Below are positions 8,517 to 64,000 of a stretch of DNA of 64,000 bases, piece by piece. Numbering within the stretch: the first letter of the stretch is position 1; every line of letters starts with the position of its first letter. The notes under the pieces are model-generated. The model did no database searches. It had not been told where the DNA came from and was given only the letters and a program-made list of their open reading frames with translations. Position numbers and translations under genes: made by a program. Source of the stretch: Selenomonas sp. AB3002 (GTDB lineage: Bacteria > Bacillota > Negativicutes > Selenomonadales > Selenomonadaceae). The DNA lies in the NCBI RefSeq assembly GCF_000702545.1, contig NZ_JNIO01000008.1, positions 1,302,001-1,366,000 on the forward strand. Reading direction: 5' to 3'.

Positions 8517-11001
8517 GACTTATGACCTCACGCCTCCTGCCTGCAGGCTTTTCTTTCTTCACGAAATCCAGCTTGTCCTCAGCCTTGCCCTTGCGGACGC
8601 TGATAGTATCTCCTGCCTTGAAAGCCCCGGCAAGCAGCAGCTCCGCCAGATCGTTTTCCAGCAGCCTTTCGATGGCCCGGCGCAGGGGACGCGCCCCATA
8701 TTTTTCATCCGTGCCCTTTTCTATCAGGCGCAGCTTGGCGCTGGGGGTGACCTCCAGCCGCAGGCCCTGCTCCAAAAGGCGCTTCTTCACATCAGCCAGC
8801 AGGATATCCACTATCCTGGAAAGCTCCGGCCTGCCCAGTGGGTGGAAGACCAACAGCTCGTCCACTCTGTTCAGGAACTCCGGCCTAAAGGTGCGGCGCA
8901 CCTCGCCCATGACCCGCTTCTTTTCCAGCTCCTGCTGACTGAGGCTGCGCTCCGCCCCTACGGCAAAGCCCATAGCAGGAGCAGCCTTCTTCAGGGACCC
9001 GGCTCCGGCATTGGAGGTCATGATGATCACCGTGTGGCGGAAATCCACCGTGCGCCCCTGGCCGTCAGTAAGGCGGCCGTCATCCAGCACCTGCAGCAGG
9101 ATATTGAAAACATCAGGGTGGGCCTTTTCTATCTCATCCAAAAGAATGATGGAATAGGGCTTCTGCCGCACGGCATCTGTCATGCGGCCTCCCTCCTGAT
9201 AACCCACATAGCCCGGAGGGGCTCCCACCATGCGGGAAACAGTATGCTTTTCCATATACTCGGACATATCAAAGCGGATAATGGCCTCTTCACTGCCAAA
9301 GAGCCTTTCTGCCAGCGCCTTGGCAAGTTCCGTCTTGCCCACCCCCGTAGGCCCCAGGAACAGGAAGGAACCAATGGGGCGGCGGGGATCCTTGAGGCCG
9401 GCCCTGGCCCTTCTGACCGCACGGGAAACGGCTTCCACCGCCTCCTGCTGCCCCACCACTCTGGCAGACAGCTTCTTTTCCAGCCCCAGAAGGCTTGCCG
9501 CTTCCCGGCTGGCCATGCGCTGCACAGGAATGCCTGTCCAGAGGGAGACCACCTCAGCCACGTCGTTTTCTGTCACCGTCACGAAGCTGCCATTCTGCTG
9601 GTTCCACTCCTTGCGTGCCTCCTGCAGTTCCGCCTTCTTCCGCTGCATTTCATCCCGAAGGCTGGCGGCCTTCTCAAAGGCCTGGTCCTTGATGGCTTCG
9701 TCCTTCTCCTTTTCCAGCCGGTTAAGGCTCTCCTCCATCTCCTGCAGGGACTTGGGAGCAGAGACATTTGCCATGCGCACCTTGGCCGCCGCCTCGTCCA
9801 TCACGTCGATGGCCTTGTCCGGCAGGAAGCGGCCCGAAATATAGCGGGAACTCAGCCGCACCGCTGCCTCCAGGGCATCATCCTGAATGACTGCCCGGTG
9901 GAATTTCTCATAATGTCCCCGCAGCCCCTTCAGGATAGCCTCCGCCTCATCCACGGTAGGTTCCTCCACCAGCACTGTCTGGAAGCGGCGGGCGAGGGCC
10001 CCGTCCTTTTCCAGATGCTTCTTGTACTCGGACAGGGTAGTGGCGCCGATGACCTGTATCTCGCCGCGGGACAGGGCAGGCTTCAGGATATTGGCCGCAT
10101 CAAGAGCCCCCTCTGCCGCCCCGGCTCCCACCAGAGTGTGGAGCTCGTCTATGAAGAGTATCACCTTGCCTGACTTCCTGATTTCCTCGATGACTCCCTT
10201 CAGGCGTTCCTCGAACTCACCCCGGTACTTGGCACCTGCCACCAGAGAGGCGATGGACAGGGAAATGATTTCCTTGTCCTGCAGCGTATGGGGCACCTCT
10301 CCTGCTACTATGCGCTGGGCCAGTCCCTCGGCAATGGCAGTCTTGCCCACCCCCGGCTCCCCCAGGAGCACGGGATTGTTCTTGCGGCGGCGGGAGAGGA
10401 TCTGCACCGTGCGGGTGATTTCCTTCTGCCTGCCCACCACCGGGTCCAGTGCCTGCTCTTTGGCCAGCCTGGTTAAATTGCGGCCGTATTTTTTCAGCAG
10501 GGGCGTGCCTCCCCTGCTTTCGTTCGAAGCGTTTGGCTCTTCCTGATAATCGCCTTTTTCTTCCAAAAGAGAAAAGATTTCATTCAAAGCATCATTCAAT
10601 TCTATACCGAAGTGCTCAATCAGCTCCACCGCCGCCCCTCCGGCGTCCTCCAGCAGGCTGATAAGGATATGCTCCGTGTCCACCACAGAGGCCCCCAGCC
10701 GGTCGGCTTCCTCCACCGCCCCCTCCATGACCCGCTTGGCCCTGGGGGTATAGTAAGGATTGTCAGAGGGGTATTCCTGCTCGCTGGCCGTCAGCCGCCG
10801 CAGCTCCGAGAGGGCGCTTTCATACTCCATGCCCAGATTCCTGAGGGCTTTGGCCGCCAGGCTCCCCCGTTCATGCAGGAGCCCCAGCAGGATATGCTCT
10901 GTACCTATGTAATCCCGGCGCAGCTCGTGGGCCAGATACTGGCCGAAACGCACTGCCCGGACAGCTGTTTCTGTAAATTCTCTTCGGTCTCTATCGCCCA
11001 T
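8506..11001 (-). CDS. clpC: ATP-dependent Clp protease ATP-binding subunit ClpC
   Basis: An 831-residue Hsp100 unfoldase that feeds substrates, including arginine-phosphorylated proteins, to ClpP. Order of domains: N-terminal Clp-N repeats (RAVRFGQYLAHELRRDYIGT), AAA+ module 1 with GEPGVGKTAIAEGLAQ near residue 207, a UVR/coiled-coil M domain around 420-460 (EKEKDEAIKDQAFEKA), and AAA+ module 2 with GPTGVGKTELAKALAE near 550. AAGGAGG stands 7 bp before the ATG. The McsA/McsB adaptor genes lie directly upstream and the operon begins with its repressor ctsR. Confidence 0.97.
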   Translation of the reverse strand: MGDRDRREFTETAVRAVRFGQYLAHELRRDYIGTEHILLGLLHERGSLAAKALRNLGMEYESALSELRRLTASEQEYPSDNPYYTPRAKRVMEGAVEEADRLGASVVDTEHILISLLEDAGGAAVELIEHFGIELNDALNEIFSLLEEKGDYQEEPNASNESRGGTPLLKKYGRNLTRLAKEQALDPVVGRQKEITRTVQILSRRRKNNPVLLGEPGVGKTAIAEGLAQRIVAGEVPHTLQDKEIISLSIASLVAGAKYRGEFEERLKGVIEEIRKSGKVILFIDELHTLVGAGAAEGALDAANILKPALSRGEIQVIGATTLSEYKKHLEKDGALARRFQTVLVEEPTVDEAEAILKGLRGHYEKFHRAVIQDDALEAAVRLSSRYISGRFLPDKAIDVMDEAAAKVRMANVSAPKSLQEMEESLNRLEKEKDEAIKDQAFEKAASLRDEMQRKKAELQEARKEWNQQNGSFVTVTENDVAEVVSLWTGIPVQRMASREAASLLGLEKKLSARVVGQQEAVEAVSRAVRRARAGLKDPRRPIGSFLFLGPTGVGKTELAKALAERLFGSEEAIIRFDMSEYMEKHTVSRMVGAPPGYVGYQEGGRMTDAVRQKPYSIILLDEIEKAHPDVFNILLQVLDDGRLTDGQGRTVDFRHTVIIMTSNAGAGSLKKAAPAMGFAVGAERSLSQQELEKKRVMGEVRRTFRPEFLNRVDELLVFHPLGRPELSRIVDILLADVKKRLLEQGLRLEVTPSAKLRLIEKGTDEKYGARPLRRAIERLLENDLAELLLAGAFKAGDTISVRKGKAEDKLDFVKKEKPAGRRREVISHGQ

Positions 11002-56839: not shown

Positions 56840-57265
56840 TCACACAGCCGACATTTCCTCTGCCGACAGGGGGATGCCTCCGGCTTTGCGGAGGGCGGCT
56901 TCGGCATTCTTGGTATCGTTCACCCGGAAGATCATGTAGGCGTTCTTCTTGCCGGCGAAAGCGTACATGTACTCTATATTGATTTTGGCTACCTCAAATT
57001 TGGCCAGCAGGGCATCAAGGCCGCCGGCTTCATCGGAAATGGCAAAGACCAGCACTGAGTTTAGCCTGGTGATGAAACCTGCATTCTCCAGTACATTGGT
57101 GGCTTCAAAAACATCGTCCACCAGCATGCGCACAATGCCAAAATCCTTGGTATCCGCCAGGGACAGGGCGCGGATGTTGATCTTGTTCTCCGCCAGGACG
57201 GCAGTCATGTTTTTCAGCGTTCCCGGCCGGTTCTCCAAAAATACGGAAATCTGCTTCACACTCAT
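56840..57265 (-). CDS. Two-ACT-domain amino-acid-binding protein
   Basis: 141 residues comprising two ACT modules: VKQISVFLENRPGTLKNMTAVL and the second, VLVFAISDEAGGLDALLAKF. Proteins of this kind commonly accompany phenylacetate-CoA ligase genes and probably bind an aromatic or branched amino acid to control the pathway. It is the last gene of the operon, 14 bp after paaK. Confidence 0.9.
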   Translation of the reverse strand: MSVKQISVFLENRPGTLKNMTAVLAENKINIRALSLADTKDFGIVRMLVDDVFEATNVLENAGFITRLNSVLVFAISDEAGGLDALLAKFEVAKINIEYMYAFAGKKNAYMIFRVNDTKNAEAALRKAGGIPLSAEEMSAV

Positions 57266-57279
57266 AGCTTGGCACCTCC

Positions 57280-58581
57280 TCAGATCTTGCGCTTGTCTAT
57301 GACCCGGACAGCCTTGCCGCTGCTCCGCTCTATGCTCTTGGGCGCTACCAGGGAAACCTTGGCACGGATGCCCAGGATGTTCTTGATGCCTTCTGCCAGT
57401 TCTTTGCGGTGCTCATCGATCTCGCCCACATTGTCAGTGAACATCTGAGGCGTCATTTCCACCTTCACCTCCATGGTGTCGGTGTTGTTCACCCTGTCTA
57501 CCACAATCTGATAATTGGCTGCGTAGCCGTGATTTAAGAGCACTGTCTCAATCTGGCTGGGGAACACGTTGACCCCGCGGATGATGAGCATATCATCGCT
57601 GCGGCCCATGGGCTTGGACATGCGCACATGAGTGCGGCCGCAGCTGCACTTTTCTCTGGTCAGCACGCAGATATCTCTGGTGCGGTAGCGCAGGATGGGG
57701 AAAGCCTCCTTGTCCAGGGCGGTGAGCACCAGTTCCCCCTGGCTGCCCTCCGGCAGCACCTCCCCGGTCTCCGGGTCGATGATCTCTGCATAGAAGTGGT
57801 CTTCGTTGATGTGCATGCCCTGCTGGGCCGAGCAGCCAAAAGCCACCCCGGGACCGGAAAGTTCCGTCAGGCCGTAAATATCATAAGCCTTGATGCCCAA
57901 GGTCTTTTCAATATCCTGCCGCATTTCCTCTGACCAGGCCTCTGCCCCGAAAATGCCGATCTTCAAAGGAATCTCCTCAGGGCTGTAGCCCATTTCCTTC
58001 ATGGTCTCGGCCAGATAAGCAGCATAGCTGGGAGTGCAGCAGAGGATCGTAGCCTTCAGGTCCATGATGAACATGATCTGCCGCTCCGTGTTGCCGGAGC
58101 TGGCAGGCACTGTGAGGCAGCCCAGTTTGTGGGAGCCGCCGTCTATGCCAGCGCCGCCGGTGAACAGGCCGTAGCCATAGGCAATGTGGCACACATCTTC
58201 ATCGGTCCCCCCTGCCGCAGCGATGGCCCTGGCTGTGCAGTCATTCCACATATCTATATCCGCCTGGGTATAAAAGGCCACCACCCGCTTACCCGTGGTG
58301 CCAGAGGTGGAATGGATGCGCACACAGTCCTTCAGGGGCACAGCCAAGAGGCCATAGGGATAGGAGTCACGCAGGTCGTATTTGGATATGAAGGGCAGCT
58401 TGCTGATATCGGCCAAAGAGGTAATATCTTCCGGCCGCACGCCCTTTTCCTCCATCTTCTGTCGGTAGTAAGGCACATGCTCCCAGGCATGGCGCACCTG
58501 CTTCTGCAGCTTTTCCTCCTGCCAGGCCCTGATTTTTTCCGGCGGGGCACATTCTATTTCTGGTTGAAAATATTTCTCCAT
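57280..58581 (-). CDS. paaK: Phenylacetate-CoA ligase
   Basis: 433-residue AMP-forming ligase that turns phenylacetate (or indoleacetate) plus CoA and ATP to the thioester. Motifs: HSTSGTTGKRVVAFYTQ near 92 (P-loop), YGLTELSGPGVAFGC near 236, and DDMLIIRGVNVFPSQIE near 330. It is shorter than acetyl-CoA synthetases, as expected for PaaK. It lies next to iorAB: in anaerobes the couple runs arylpyruvate to aryl-acetyl-CoA to arylacetate with ATP gain, or in reverse. Confidence 0.95.
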   Translation of the reverse strand: MEKYFQPEIECAPPEKIRAWQEEKLQKQVRHAWEHVPYYRQKMEEKGVRPEDITSLADISKLPFISKYDLRDSYPYGLLAVPLKDCVRIHSTSGTTGKRVVAFYTQADIDMWNDCTARAIAAAGGTDEDVCHIAYGYGLFTGGAGIDGGSHKLGCLTVPASSGNTERQIMFIMDLKATILCCTPSYAAYLAETMKEMGYSPEEIPLKIGIFGAEAWSEEMRQDIEKTLGIKAYDIYGLTELSGPGVAFGCSAQQGMHINEDHFYAEIIDPETGEVLPEGSQGELVLTALDKEAFPILRYRTRDICVLTREKCSCGRTHVRMSKPMGRSDDMLIIRGVNVFPSQIETVLLNHGYAANYQIVVDRVNNTDTMEVKVEMTPQMFTDNVGEIDEHRKELAEGIKNILGIRAKVSLVAPKSIERSSGKAVRVIDKRKI

Positions 58582-58619
58582 AAAATACCTCTTTTCGTGA
58601 TGAATCTAACAACTAAAAA

Positions 58620-59198
58620 TCAGTCCTGATAATTTCTCCCCAGGGCAAAGGCCTTCTGATTGAGTTCCAGGAATTTAGGCGGCACGCTGTCAGCCAGAAC
58701 CTGCTGCCACACCTCTTCGCTGATGTCAAAATAATGGGAGAGCCTGCCCAAAAGCACGATATTCACCGCTTTTTGAGAGCCTGCTTCCCTGGCCAGGGTC
58801 AGGCAGTCCATGGCGTCTATGCTGATGCCCTTGGCCTTGATCTTTTCCACCAGCTTCTCGGGATAAGCCGCCGCCCCCGTAATGACGGGCATTGGGTCTA
58901 TCTGCTGGGTATTGGTGACTATCTGGCCCCCGGGCTTAAGGCATCTGAGCCAGCGGGCCGTCTCAAGGATCTCAAAAGAGACAATGAAATCCGCCTCCCC
59001 TTCGTCCACCACAGGGGAATACACCCGGTCGCCAAAGCGCACATAGGTGATGACGCTGCCTCCCCGCTGGGACATGCCGTGAACCTCCGAAACCTTCACA
59101 TCATAGCCCTGCCGCAGCAGCAGTTCGCCCAGAATCTTGCTGGCCAATAAAGAGCCTTGCCCGCCTACGCCGATGATGATTATATTTTTTGTTTCCAT
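58620..59198 (-). CDS. iorB: Indolepyruvate oxidoreductase, beta subunit
   Basis: 192 residues: IIIGVGGQGSLLASKILGEL at the start is the gamma/beta-subunit fold of 2-oxoacid:ferredoxin oxidoreductases; VHGMSQRGGSVITYVRFG is the conserved contact loop. It forms the small subunit of the aryl-pyruvate enzyme and lies 12 bp after iorA. Confidence 0.95.
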   Translation of the reverse strand: METKNIIIIGVGGQGSLLASKILGELLLRQGYDVKVSEVHGMSQRGGSVITYVRFGDRVYSPVVDEGEADFIVSFEILETARWLRCLKPGGQIVTNTQQIDPMPVITGAAAYPEKLVEKIKAKGISIDAMDCLTLAREAGSQKAVNIVLLGRLSHYFDISEEVWQQVLADSVPPKFLELNQKAFALGRNYQD

Positions 59199-59210
59199 AG
59201 TGCCGCCTCC

Positions 59211-60953
59211 TCAATTTTTCATCATGCTGGCAAAGGCCTGCTTGGGACAAAGCTGCTGGCACAGGCCGCAGCCCACACAAAGGGTAGTGTCCACCTGGGC
59301 CTTGCCCTCCTTGATGGAAATGGCGGGACAACCGATGCGCATGCAGGCTTTGCAGCCGATGCACTTCTCCCTGTCTACGAAGAGAGGCGCCTTATGCTGA
59401 ACGTTTTTCAGCAGGGCGCAGGGACGGCGGGAAATGATCACCGAAGCCTCCGGGGCAGCCAGTTCTTCCGTGATGGCCGCTTCCGTAGCCTTGAGGTCGT
59501 AGGGATCTGTTACCCTTACCCTGGCAAAGCCCATGGCCCGGCAAAGAGCCTCAAGATCTATCCTGCCGGCCGGTTCCCCCTTGATGTTCAGCCCCGTGGC
59601 AGGATTCTGCTGATGGCCCGTCATGCCTGTGATGGAATTGTCCAGGATGATGATGGTGGAGGGTGACTGGTTGTAGGCCACATTGGCCAGGCCTGTCATG
59701 CCGGAGTGGATAAAGGTGGAATCCCCGATAACCGCCACAGTCTTGCCGCTGCTTTCCGCCCCCCGCATCTTGTTGAAGCCATGGGTGGCACTGATGGAAG
59801 CCCCCATGCAGAGGGTCATATCCATGGCCGCCAGAGGCGGCACCGCCCCCAGTGTATAGCAGCCGATATCCCCCAACACCGTGCATTTCTTCTTCTGCAG
59901 CGTGTAGAACAGGCCGCGATGAGGGCAGCCGGCACACATGACAGGAGGACGGGAAGGAATGGCTTCCTCCAGGCTCGCTCCTGCCGTAACCTCGCGGCCA
60001 AAAGCCTTGGCCACCAGATTCTGGGAAAACTCGTCAATGCCAGGCAAAATATCCCGCCCGGATACCGCAAGGCCCAGGCTGCGCACATACTGCTCGATGA
60101 TGTCGTCCAGTTCCTCCACCACCACCAGCTTTTCCACCTTGGCAGCAAAGTCCCGGATCTTCTGCTCCGGCAGGGGATTCACCAGCCCAAGCTTCAGGAC
60201 GCTGACGCTGTCCCCGAAGACCTCCTTAACATATTGGTAGGAGGTGGATGAGGTGATGATGCCCAGTTCCGTGCCTCCCATTTCCACCCGGTTCAGCTCC
60301 GTAGTTTCCGCATACTCTCTGAGAGCCCGGGTGCGGGCTTCCACAATGGGATGCCGCTTCTTGGCATTCCCCGGCATCATGACGTACTTGGCAATATTTT
60401 TCTCATAGGGCTTGTCGTATTCGCTGCGCTCCCCCGTTTCCACCACGGACTGGGAGTGGGCCACCCGGGTGCACATCTTGATGAGCACCGGGGTGTCGAA
60501 TTTCTCCGAAAGCTCATAGGCTGTCTTGGTGAAGGCCAGGGCCTCTGCCGAATCGGCAGGTTCCAGCATGGGCACCTTGGCAGCTATGGCATAGTGACGG
60601 CTGTCCTGCTCATTCTGTGAGGAGTGCATGCCTGCATCATCTGCCACCACGATGACCATGCCAGCATTCACGCCAGTATAGGACATAGTAAAGAGGGGGT
60701 CGGCAGCCACATTCAGTCCCACGTGCTTCTGGGCGCAGAAGGAACGCTTTCCCGCCAGGGATGCTCCGAAGGCCGACTCCATAGCCACCTTTTCATTGGG
60801 CGCCCATTCGCAGTAAATTTCCTCGTATTTCACAGCTTCTTCCGTAATCTCCGTGCTGGGGGTGCCCGGATAGCTGGACACGAAGCAGACACCTGCCTCA
60901 TACAGCCCCCTGGCTATGGCTTTGTTTCCTAGCATCAATGTTTTCATGCTCAT
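59211..60953 (-). CDS. iorA: Indolepyruvate ferredoxin oxidoreductase, alpha subunit
   Basis: 580 residues. N-terminal pyrimidine-binding domain (GLYEAGVCFVSSYPGTPSTE), then the TPP-binding region GDIGCYTLGAVPPLAAMD and GDSTFIHSGMTGLAN; the C-terminus has two 4Fe-4S sites, CIGCKACMRIGC and CVGCGLCQQLC. It oxidatively decarboxylates indolepyruvate and phenylpyruvate to aryl-acetyl-CoA with ferredoxin as acceptor, or the reverse. It overlaps the ligase gene by 4 bp. Confidence 0.96.
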   Translation of the reverse strand: MSMKTLMLGNKAIARGLYEAGVCFVSSYPGTPSTEITEEAVKYEEIYCEWAPNEKVAMESAFGASLAGKRSFCAQKHVGLNVAADPLFTMSYTGVNAGMVIVVADDAGMHSSQNEQDSRHYAIAAKVPMLEPADSAEALAFTKTAYELSEKFDTPVLIKMCTRVAHSQSVVETGERSEYDKPYEKNIAKYVMMPGNAKKRHPIVEARTRALREYAETTELNRVEMGGTELGIITSSTSYQYVKEVFGDSVSVLKLGLVNPLPEQKIRDFAAKVEKLVVVEELDDIIEQYVRSLGLAVSGRDILPGIDEFSQNLVAKAFGREVTAGASLEEAIPSRPPVMCAGCPHRGLFYTLQKKKCTVLGDIGCYTLGAVPPLAAMDMTLCMGASISATHGFNKMRGAESSGKTVAVIGDSTFIHSGMTGLANVAYNQSPSTIIILDNSITGMTGHQQNPATGLNIKGEPAGRIDLEALCRAMGFARVRVTDPYDLKATEAAITEELAAPEASVIISRRPCALLKNVQHKAPLFVDREKCIGCKACMRIGCPAISIKEGKAQVDTTLCVGCGLCQQLCPKQAFASMMKN

Positions 60954-62596
60954 TCTTCCTCGCTCTCCACTTGCCTCTCTACCAGATTATCTGCGCCATA
61001 CAGCTTGCGCAGTTTCGGCTTTTCGATTTTACCCGTGGCATTCCGGGGAACCGCATCAAAGATGATTTTCTTGGGGCGCTTGTACCTGGGCAGTTCCAGG
61101 CAGAACTCCTGGATTTCCTCCTCTGTGCAGGCCTCCCCTTCCTTCACCTGGATGATGGCTGCCGTGATCTCTCCCAGACGCTTGTCCGGCATGCCGATGA
61201 CCGCCACATCCTTGATTTTCTCATGCTTGTGCAGGAAGTCTTCAATCTGGACGGGGTAGATATTCTCACCGCCGCTGACAATGACATCCTTCTTGCGATC
61301 CACCAGGAAATAAAAACCATCCTCGTCCTGCATGGCCATGTCACCGGTAAAGAGCCACCCCTCCCGCAGGACTTCGGCGGTGGCCTGGGGATTGTTGTAA
61401 TAGCAGGTCATGACCCCGGGACCTTTCACGCACAGCTCCCCCACTTCGCCCTGGGGCACCTCCCGGCCTGCCTCATCCACAATCCTGCAGGCCCAGCGGT
61501 AGCCCGGCACGCCGATGGCGCCCACCTTGTGGATGTTTTCCATGCCCAGATGCACACAGCCCGGTCCCGTGGACTCCGACAGGCCGTAATTTGTATCATA
61601 GTCATGATGGGGAAAGTATTTTTTCCAATGACGGATGAGGCTCGAGGGCACAGGCTGGGCCCCGATGTGCATCAGCCGCCACTGGGCCAGCTCATAGTCC
61701 TCCAGCTTCAGCTCTCCCCTGTCCAGTGCCCCCAGGATATCCTGCGCCCAGGGCACCAGCAGCCAGACAATGGTGCAGTGCTCCTGGGAAACGGCCTGCA
61801 GGATGATTTCCGGCTTGGTACCCTTCAGGAGCACCGCCCTGCCCCCTGTCACCAGGCTGCCCATCCAGTGGAATTTCGCCCCCGTATGGTAAAGGGGAGG
61901 AATGCAAAGGAAAACATCCTCGTGGGTGGTGGCATGATGCTTCTGCTCCATCTGGGCGGCCTGGGTCAGGCTCAGATGCTTGTGCAGGATGGCCTTGGGA
62001 AAGCCCGTGGTGCCCGAGGAAAAATAGATGGCACCGAAGTCATCATCCGTAATGGGCGGCACATTGGGCCTGGTACTGGGACAATCCGCCACCATCAGAT
62101 GGTAGCTTTCCGCAAAGGGAGGACAGCCATCCCCCACATAGATGAGCAGCCGCCCCTTGGACAGTCTTTCCGCATTTGTCTCGATACGGCCAATGAAGCT
62201 GGGGCCGAAGATGATCACGCTTACTTCGGCCAGTTCCGCGCAGTAGAGAATCTCTTTCGCATCGTAGCGGAAATTGAAGGGCACGGCAATGGCCCCCGTC
62301 TTCAGGATGCCAAAGTAAATGGGCAGCCACTCCAGGCAGTTGTACATGAGGATGGCCACCTTGTCCCCCTTGCGGACGCCTCGCTGCAACAGCAGATTGG
62401 CACAGCGGTTGGCCTTTTCCTCAAACACGCTCCAGGTGATTTCCCGCCTATAGGGAGCAAAGCGGTCTGATTCAATAAGGCTGTATTCCTTCCAGCTCAT
62501 GCGCCGGTTGTCCGGCTCTGTGGGATTGAGTTCCACCAGCGCAACTTCATCCCCATAAAGCTCTGCATTGCGCTCCAGATATTCCATCACAGGCAT
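60950..62596 (-). CDS. AMP-forming acyl/aryl-CoA synthetase
   Basis: 548 residues of the class I adenylate-forming family. Motifs: YFSSGTTGFPKAILH near 185, YGLSESTGPG near 330, GWLFTGDMAMQDEDGFY near 430 with the adenylate Asp, DRKKD, and near the C-terminus KIEKPKLRK with the catalytic Lys. The substrate may be a fatty or aromatic acid. As first gene of the iorAB-paaK operon, an aryl acid is likely (inference). Confidence 0.88.
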   Translation of the reverse strand: MPVMEYLERNAELYGDEVALVELNPTEPDNRRMSWKEYSLIESDRFAPYRREITWSVFEEKANRCANLLLQRGVRKGDKVAILMYNCLEWLPIYFGILKTGAIAVPFNFRYDAKEILYCAELAEVSVIIFGPSFIGRIETNAERLSKGRLLIYVGDGCPPFAESYHLMVADCPSTRPNVPPITDDDFGAIYFSSGTTGFPKAILHKHLSLTQAAQMEQKHHATTHEDVFLCIPPLYHTGAKFHWMGSLVTGGRAVLLKGTKPEIILQAVSQEHCTIVWLLVPWAQDILGALDRGELKLEDYELAQWRLMHIGAQPVPSSLIRHWKKYFPHHDYDTNYGLSESTGPGCVHLGMENIHKVGAIGVPGYRWACRIVDEAGREVPQGEVGELCVKGPGVMTCYYNNPQATAEVLREGWLFTGDMAMQDEDGFYFLVDRKKDVIVSGGENIYPVQIEDFLHKHEKIKDVAVIGMPDKRLGEITAAIIQVKEGEACTEEEIQEFCLELPRYKRPKKIIFDAVPRNATGKIEKPKLRKLYGADNLVERQVESEEE

Positions 62597-62841: not shown

Positions 62842-63687
62842 ATGCACCAATATTTATTCTATATAGGAAACTTTCCCATCCGCAGCTATGGACTTGTCAT
62901 TTCCCTCTCCATCATCCTAGCTACGGGAGTAGGCTATTTTCTGGCTAAAAAAGAAAACAAAGGTTATGAGAAGCACATCGTGGACCTTGGCATCTATTGC
63001 GGCATTGCGGGACTGATTGGCGCCCGGCTCTGGGATGTATTCTTCTTTGACTGGGATTACTATTCCCACCATCTGACGGAACTCTTTGCTGTCTGGCAAG
63101 GGGGCATGGCCATACAGGGCGGAGTGCTGCTGGGGGTGCTGACAGGTGTTTATTATTGCAGGAAGCATAAACTGGACACCCTGGCACTGATGGATATCCT
63201 GGCTCCTGCCATCATCCTGGGGCAGGCTCTGGGGCGCTGCGCCAACCTGCTGAATGGCGATGCCTTCGGCGCCCCCACCGGCAGCAGCTTCGGAATTGTC
63301 TATCCTAACACCACCCTTGCCCACCGCACCTATGGCAATCAGCCTCTCTGGCCTGCAGAGGTCTGGGAAGGACAGCTGGACATGGTCATCTTCGCCCTGT
63401 TGCTGATGTTCCGCAGCCACAAGCACGCCAAAGGCCAGTGCTTTGCCCTCTACGTCTTCCTCTACAGCCTGGCCCGCTTCTGCCTGGAATTCCTGCGGGG
63501 AGATTATACGGAAAAAGTCTTCGGACTGCTCACCAGTGCCCAGACCACCAGTTCCATCCTCATGGCCCTGTCTGCAGCCGCCTTTATCCTGGCAGGCATT
63601 TACGAAAAACACCAGCAGCCAAAGCCCGGGCTTTCACCTATAATCGCAGCCACCAGCAGGAAAAAGAAGGATTCCGGGACTGATTGA
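62842..63687 (+). CDS. lgt: Prolipoprotein diacylglyceryl transferase
   Basis: 281-residue inner-membrane enzyme that moves diacylglycerol from phosphatidylglycerol to the lipobox Cys of prolipoproteins. Seven hydrophobic segments; YGLVISLSIILATGVGYFL near 17, GARLWDVFFFDW near 60, and the signature GQALGRCANLLNGDAFGAPT near 134-153, which keeps the Arg and Asn of the Lgt motif but replaces the usual Glu with Asp. SD AAGGAGG precedes the ATG. It is a single gene with its own promoter. Confidence 0.95.
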   Translation: MHQYLFYIGNFPIRSYGLVISLSIILATGVGYFLAKKENKGYEKHIVDLGIYCGIAGLIGARLWDVFFFDWDYYSHHLTELFAVWQGGMAIQGGVLLGVLTGVYYCRKHKLDTLALMDILAPAIILGQALGRCANLLNGDAFGAPTGSSFGIVYPNTTLAHRTYGNQPLWPAEVWEGQLDMVIFALLLMFRSHKHAKGQCFALYVFLYSLARFCLEFLRGDYTEKVFGLLTSAQTTSSILMALSAAAFILAGIYEKHQQPKPGLSPIIAATSRKKKDSGTD

Positions 63688-63713
63688 CGAAATAGACCAT
63701 TATCATTTATAAT
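63684..63713 (+). promoter_or_regulatory. Promoter of the speD-like gene
   Basis: -35 TTGACG (63684-63689), overlapping the lgt stop codon, 18-bp spacer, -10 TATAAT (63708-63713). Confidence 0.65.
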
Positions 63714-63752
63714 TTACTTTATGACTACATACTAACAAGGAGGGTTTGGTTC

Positions 63753-64000
63753 GTGAAACTTAATGCAAGGCACCTGACGGTGGATTTGTATAACTGCAAG
63801 AACAGTCAGCTTACCGACATAGATCTCATCAAGAAGACCCTGAAGAGCAGCCTTTCCCAAAATGGTGCCAGCCTCATCGGCCTGTGCTGTGAGCAGGTAG
63901 AGGATGACCATCATGCCCTGATGGGTATTCTGGAGGAAGGCCACATCTCCCTGCAGGTTTACAGCGATCTGAAATATGTGGCCATGGACATCTTCCTCTG
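63753..64000 (+). CDS. SpeD-like (S-adenosylmethionine decarboxylase family) protein, partial
   Basis: The first 82 residues are in the window. RHLTVDLYNCKNSQLTDIDL and the strand pattern NGASLIGLCCEQVE match bacterial SpeD, as does EEGHISLQVY followed by YVAMDIFL. In SpeD the ESHIS motif holds the Ser that self-cleaves to give the pyruvoyl cofactor; here that Ser is Gly63 (E-G-H-I-S), and the usual IHTWPE is replaced by LQVYSD. So normal self-processing looks impossible. GTG start at 63753 with AAGGAGG 9 bp before. The 3' part lies outside. Confidence 0.8.
   Translation, partial: MKLNARHLTVDLYNCKNSQLTDIDLIKKTLKSSLSQNGASLIGLCCEQVEDDHHALMGILEEGHISLQVYSDLKYVAMDIFL

Follow-up and report, generated by a model that had tools for sequence, protein, structure and literature searches.

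The gene at the downstream edge of the window (the whole 64,000-nucleotide stretch of DNA analyzed here) raises the question of what a SpeD-like protein does without the serine from which AdoMetDC forms its pyruvoyl cofactor. An earlier, sequence-only reading had proposed a catalytically dead paralog with a regulatory, partner or new enzymatic role, and advised that the rest of the gene be read. The window edge cuts this gene; in the genome sequence (handle G000) it spans G000:C8:1365753-1366211, begins with GTG at window position 63753 and encodes 152 residues, including a conserved basic tail that is encoded beyond the edge. The coordinates are collected in Table 1.

Table 1. Features of the SpeD-like locus and of the polyamine operon in the same genome (window positions unless another handle is given).
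Feature	Position	Strand	Basis or remark
SpeD-like gene, residues 1-82 of 152	63753..64000	+	ORF, translation, PF02675; continues to G000:C8:1366211
Codon 63, GGC (Gly), at the pyruvoyl-forming Ser of AdoMetDC	63939..63941	+	ungapped alignment to 1tlu/1tmi
Codon 68, CAG (Gln), at processing His68 of AdoMetDC	63954..63956	+	alignment
Codon 83, first two bases; the complete codon encodes Cys, retaining catalytic Cys83	63999..64000	+	
Sigma-70 type promoter, TTGACG-N18-TATAAT	63684..63713	+	overlaps lgt end
Shine-Dalgarno, AGGAGG	63738..63743	+	
lgt, upstream neighbor in many Selenomonadaceae; context only	62842..63687	+	synteny
Polyamine operon with SpeE	L213:2699-9487 (G000:C8:795698-802486)	minus	

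The window gene encodes a SpeD homologue with glycine at position 63

The window protein matches PF02675 over the whole model (2.4e-20), and profile alignment places its residues 2-116, ungapped, on AdoMetDC from Thermotoga maritima (1tlu/1tmi; E = 1.8e-20). In this alignment, Gly63 falls on the pyruvoyl-forming Ser63, Gln68 on His68 and Cys83 on Cys83. Both motif changes noticed earlier are thereby borne out, namely E-G-H-I-S with glycine at residue 63 and LQVYSD in place of IHTWPE; the second means that His68 is also replaced, by Gln, while Cys83 is kept. By alignment, the gene is a class 1b SpeD homologue that carries Gly for the pyruvoyl-forming serine. It has the homology and the fold of that class (PF02675; TM 0.88 to 1tlu), but neither Ser63 nor any other conserved Ser for self-cleavage, nor the pairing of His68 with Cys83. 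With 71.7 bits, it falls below the equivalog cut-off of TIGR03330 (75.65 bits), the sole NCBIfam model matched by these proteins, and the Ser63-derived pyruvoyl that defines the SpeDA/SpeDC pyruvoyl ADC/ODC enzymes is likewise missing.

The expectation that the rest of the fold is kept agrees with an AlphaFold2 model computed from a 77-member alignment (pLDDT 86), in which the predicted core matches 1tlu with a TM-score to the target of 0.88 and an rmsd of 2.0, and the tail is modeled as a strand and a helix (pLDDT 55-75). The structure matches listed also include trypanosome AdoMetDC/prozyme and, weakly, the N-terminal domain of human spermine synthase (3c6k), which we take to be a noncatalytic SpeD-like domain; it is part of a synthase and lacks such a tail.

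Gly63 is present in all 39 family loci first read, in 84/84 distinct sequences of the family, and in 80/80 named records from Selenomonas, Mitsuokella, Anaerovibrio, Megamonas, Propionispira, Schwartzia and relatives. Cys83 is equally constant (84/84 and 80/80), and His68 is kept in 76/84 and 74/80, with Gln in five of the named records; the clade of the window protein itself has Gln68 and lacks the equivalents of Phe49 and Glu72. Core residues fixed in Selenomonadaceae include Cys15, Gly63, Tyr75, Asp79 and Cys83. Over all loci of the class, the Gly63 codons are GGC (54), GGT (44), GGG (37) and GGA (35). A sequencing error at the serine codon is excluded, because all 84 distinct relatives have glycine, written with all four glycine codons. 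The other way in which the earlier proposal might have failed was processing at a different serine; across 102 Gly63 sequences every Ser column stays below 80%, and therefore no replacement site is visible. Comparison of the window gene with close relatives gives a dN/dS of 0.07-0.12. The proposal of a catalytically dead protein with another role is thus well supported by the loss of Ser63 and His68, the lack of any other conserved Ser, the agreement among relatives and the low dN/dS.

The strong promoter and Shine-Dalgarno sequence reported earlier are both present (Table 1), and strong promoters precede the genes of relatives too: scores of at least 10 of 12 were reached by 74% of 207 relatives' loci, many of them redundant, versus 16% of 1600 control starts. 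An upstream riboswitch was considered and rejected, as 15 loci gave no Rfam match near the gene.

A basic C-terminal tail defines a family found throughout the Negativicutes

The form of the protein found in this class, which we take to be the Negativicutes from the named Selenomonadaceae records and general knowledge, carries a strongly basic C-terminal extension of ~45 residues (RGDFG..DMKPK..). These last ~45 residues, T..(K/R)RGDFG...(D/E)MKPK, are the strongest common feature of the family, with Arg112 and Pro123 unchanged across 77 aligned members. In a draw of the phylum, a tail-only profile matched all 14 Negativicutes genomes and 0/384 others. The tail of the window protein (residues 104-152) matches it with E = 2.4e-24, the profile including the window sequence itself; carrying the RGDFG..DMKPK.. 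motif, the window protein is a member of the Negativicutes tailed SpeD-like family. Mean net charge of the tail is +11 to +16, and the core is acidic. Searches of Pfam and the PDB gave no convincing match for the tail. It was also considered as an amphipathic membrane helix, and rejected since its moment of 0.39 is equalled by 37% of shuffles. Its presence on phages or plasmids was likewise rejected: the search listed 14 matches, of which 12 extend no further than residue 115, another stops at 122, and the longest, to residue 130, is a canonical speD beside speE, without the tail.

A full-length profile matches 237/250 genomes of the class and 194/197 of the good ones, nearly always once, so that the tailed SpeD-like protein is near-universal and mostly single-copy in the Negativicutes. 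Two near-complete genomes of the class (G164 and G242) give no match even at E = 10, which indicates that the protein can be lost.

The serine was lost repeatedly while the tail remained constrained

Several other families of the class have the canonical 22-residue segment and retain Ser63, His68 and Cys83 together with the same tail; because of this retention, Ser appears to have been lost several times. On a quick tree rooted with T. maritima, with moderate support for the branches separating the losses, Ser-bearing sequences lie near the base and also occur within largely Ser-less clades; the distribution of Ser requires seven changes of state, and the starred branches force at least four for the Ser label. 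If Ser is ancestral, Gly has at least three separate origins among these sequences. The most distant families have Ala, Thr, Cys, Val, Phe or still Ser at position 63, and mostly Phe at position 83. Within them (L192-L208), His68 is always kept (17/17) and Cys83 has mostly become Phe, a second route of active-site decay.

Core and tail differ in how they have diverged. Mean pairwise identity in members with Ser63 and Cys83 is 0.71 for the core and 0.71 for the tail. The corresponding values are 0.43 and 0.71 for Gly63 members of the window protein's own family, 0.31 and 0.51 for Gly63 members of other families, and 0.32 and 0.46 for the remaining members, a group that also includes proteins with Ser kept and Cys83 lost; in these three groups the tail is more conserved than the core in 97-100% of pairs. 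The constraint on the enzyme has therefore been released, whereas that on the tail has not.

The protein persists independently of SpeD and SpeE

Although the sequence-only reading had suggested looking for a second, normal speD and for speE nearby, neither is there: the window genome (99.8% complete) contains a single PF02675 match, and thus no canonical or other SpeD, and speE lies ~560 kb away. The term paralog used in that reading is accordingly imprecise, since there is no other SpeD in this genome; the gene is instead an orthologue of a class-wide protein that bears Ser in some families. Many genomes of the class also hold an E. coli-type SpeD, which is long and belongs to a different subfamily. 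Sixteen of the genomes with a completeness of 90% or more lack a canonical SpeD, and none of these carries a tailed protein with Ser63 and Cys83 (Fisher p = 0.006, a rough count uncorrected for kinship). In 12 of 73 genomes tested, no speE match was obtained; 11 of these 12 also lack any other SpeD yet keep the tailed protein, one of them with a genome of 1.3 Mb, and wherever it could be read in those 11, the protein lacks Ser63.

In the window genome, sequence motifs identify a polyamine operon (Table 1) encoding arginine decarboxylase, a SpeE-like protein, CASDH, CASDC, agmatine deiminase and carbamoylputrescine amidase. An operon with CASDH and CASDC can be a source of spermidine in this organism. 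The operon retains a SpeE even though a canonical SpeD is absent from the genome; with YNEM in place of YHEM and VVEPDEMF in place of VEIDEEV, this SpeE may have a changed substrate. The SpeE of SpeD-less genomes is itself diverged. Several other SpeD-less genomes have a similar operon layout.

Proposed function and alternatives

Taken together, we consider the protein probably to be a SpeD-fold pseudoenzyme, kept for a function that depends on the tail. An ancestor of the Negativicutes would have encoded a class 1b SpeD in which Ser63, His68 and Cys83 were intact and which bore the ~45-residue strongly basic extension. Gly would then have replaced Ser63 in several lineages, among them every sampled member of the Selenomonadaceae (elsewhere Ala, Thr, Cys and others took its place); no pyruvoyl cofactor could form, and hence no decarboxylation by the SpeD mechanism could proceed. 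A second function, exerted by the tail on the SpeD scaffold and free of catalysis, would have kept the protein. Judging by charge, the tail on its acidic core probably binds a polyanion (RNA, the ribosome, DNA or anionic lipid), with the core serving as a scaffold and perhaps as a sensor. Because core residues are fixed in Selenomonadaceae, we propose that the pocket there (His64, His68 in most, Tyr75, Asp79 and Cys83) may still hold a ligand, for example AdoMet or a polyamine, that tunes binding by the tail, although the conservation of His68 and Cys83 might instead reflect unrecognized chemistry. Bolder, and rather unlikely, is a class-defining regulator in which the former decarboxylase pocket, now with Gly at its catalytic position, senses AdoMet, dcAdoMet or a polyamine and the basic tail binds the ribosome or an RNA/DNA target, so that a core process would respond to methionine/polyamine status across the Negativicutes.

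Continued catalysis, in the form of His68/Cys83 chemistry on AdoMet or a related substrate without pyruvoyl, could supply SpeE in the window genome and would account for the retention of SpeE in genomes without canonical SpeD as well as for the constancy of Cys83 and near-constancy of His68 noted above. We regard it as improbable, as every known SpeD mechanism needs pyruvoyl, the window's clade has lost His68 and the equivalents of both Phe49 and Glu72, the protein is retained where SpeE is missing, SpeE has itself diverged in SpeD-less genomes, and CASDH/CASDC can make spermidine here. Quite improbable, too, is an envelope-related role in this diderm class, for example in the attachment of cadaverine or putrescine to peptidoglycan, where the SpeD fold would bind the diamine; Negativicutes have been described as having polyaminated peptidoglycan to which OmpM binds (PMC10628300), and the distribution fits, but that argument is a phylogenetic profile, no ligase domain was found, and the only envelope-gene neighbor is lgt, in part of one family.

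The partner role raised earlier has its closest functional precedent in trypanosomes, whose dead AdoMetDC paralogue (PMC5201418, PMC6221367), a prozyme, pairs with and stimulates an active enzyme. The co-occurrence of E. coli-type SpeD in many genomes would suit such an activator, yet that SpeD is of a different subfamily, the active paralogue is absent from the window genome, and the protein is kept without any other SpeD both here and in 15 further sampled genomes with a completeness of 90% or more; we therefore judge the role very unlikely. Fast divergence of the core could also suggest a decaying pseudogene or an error at the Ser codon, a reading already refuted by dN/dS of ~0.1, the use of all four Gly codons and full-length matches in nearly all good genomes. 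The pseudoenzyme remains the explanation that we prefer.

Relation to known SpeD homologues

Dead relatives of AdoMetDC are known: trypanosomatids have them (PMC5201418, PMC3686867), and Victivallis has one as a protein domain (PMC10407285). No paper describing the Negativicutes tailed protein was found in the open-licence literature; we would class it as a further form of an already known type, the SpeD-fold pseudoenzyme. The class 1b enzymes (T. maritima TM0655, PDB 1tlu/1vr7; the B. subtilis type, TIGR03330) share its fold and its Cys83, Asp79 and Tyr75, but the window protein has lost Ser63 and His68, scores below the TIGR03330 cut-off and has an extra basic tail of ~40 residues. The nonprocessing S63A mutant of T. 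maritima (PDB 1tmi) is likewise a SpeD fold incapable of forming the cofactor, and folds normally, but it is a laboratory mutant without a tail, whereas the window protein belongs to a natural lineage with one. Prozyme and Leishmania ADL (PMC5201418, PMC3686867) are also natural homologues without self-processing; they are eukaryotic and of class 2, and prozyme activates a partner that many genomes here lack. SpeDA and SpeDC have also departed from AdoMet decarboxylation, as has the C-terminal domain, likewise dead, of a SpeD fusion in V. vadensis, but SpeDA and SpeDC still require Ser and pyruvoyl and the Victivallis domain is fused to an active one (PMC10407285), unlike the window protein.

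Annotation treats SpeD as a core polyamine enzyme, and the tailed proteins probably bear that name in the genomes of bacteria from gut, mouth and rumen; spermidine pathways deduced on that basis would be wrong. A near-universal protein in which catalysis was lost several times while the tail stayed fixed offers a clean natural experiment in the passage from enzyme to nonenzyme, and its gene is a knockout target across a whole class of diderm Firmicutes.

Genome neighborhood

An operon partner was sought and rejected, as the neighbors vary between families and give no stable link. In part of the Selenomonadaceae the neighbor is lgt; on the far side of the class, genes named from sequence as ctsR-mcsAB-clpC and fabK lie on the opposite strand, with rubrerythrin downstream. 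A raiA RNA and a ZMP/ZTP riboswitch (L182:2144-2347 and 9392-9468, minus strand) lie within a few kb of a tailed SpeD-like gene that belongs to a distant family. Elsewhere in the window (56840-62596, minus strand), genes named from sequence as an ACT-domain protein, phenylacetate-CoA ligase, indolepyruvate ferredoxin oxidoreductase beta and alpha, and acyl-CoA synthetase form a cluster that is likely to serve aryl-keto-acid degradation.
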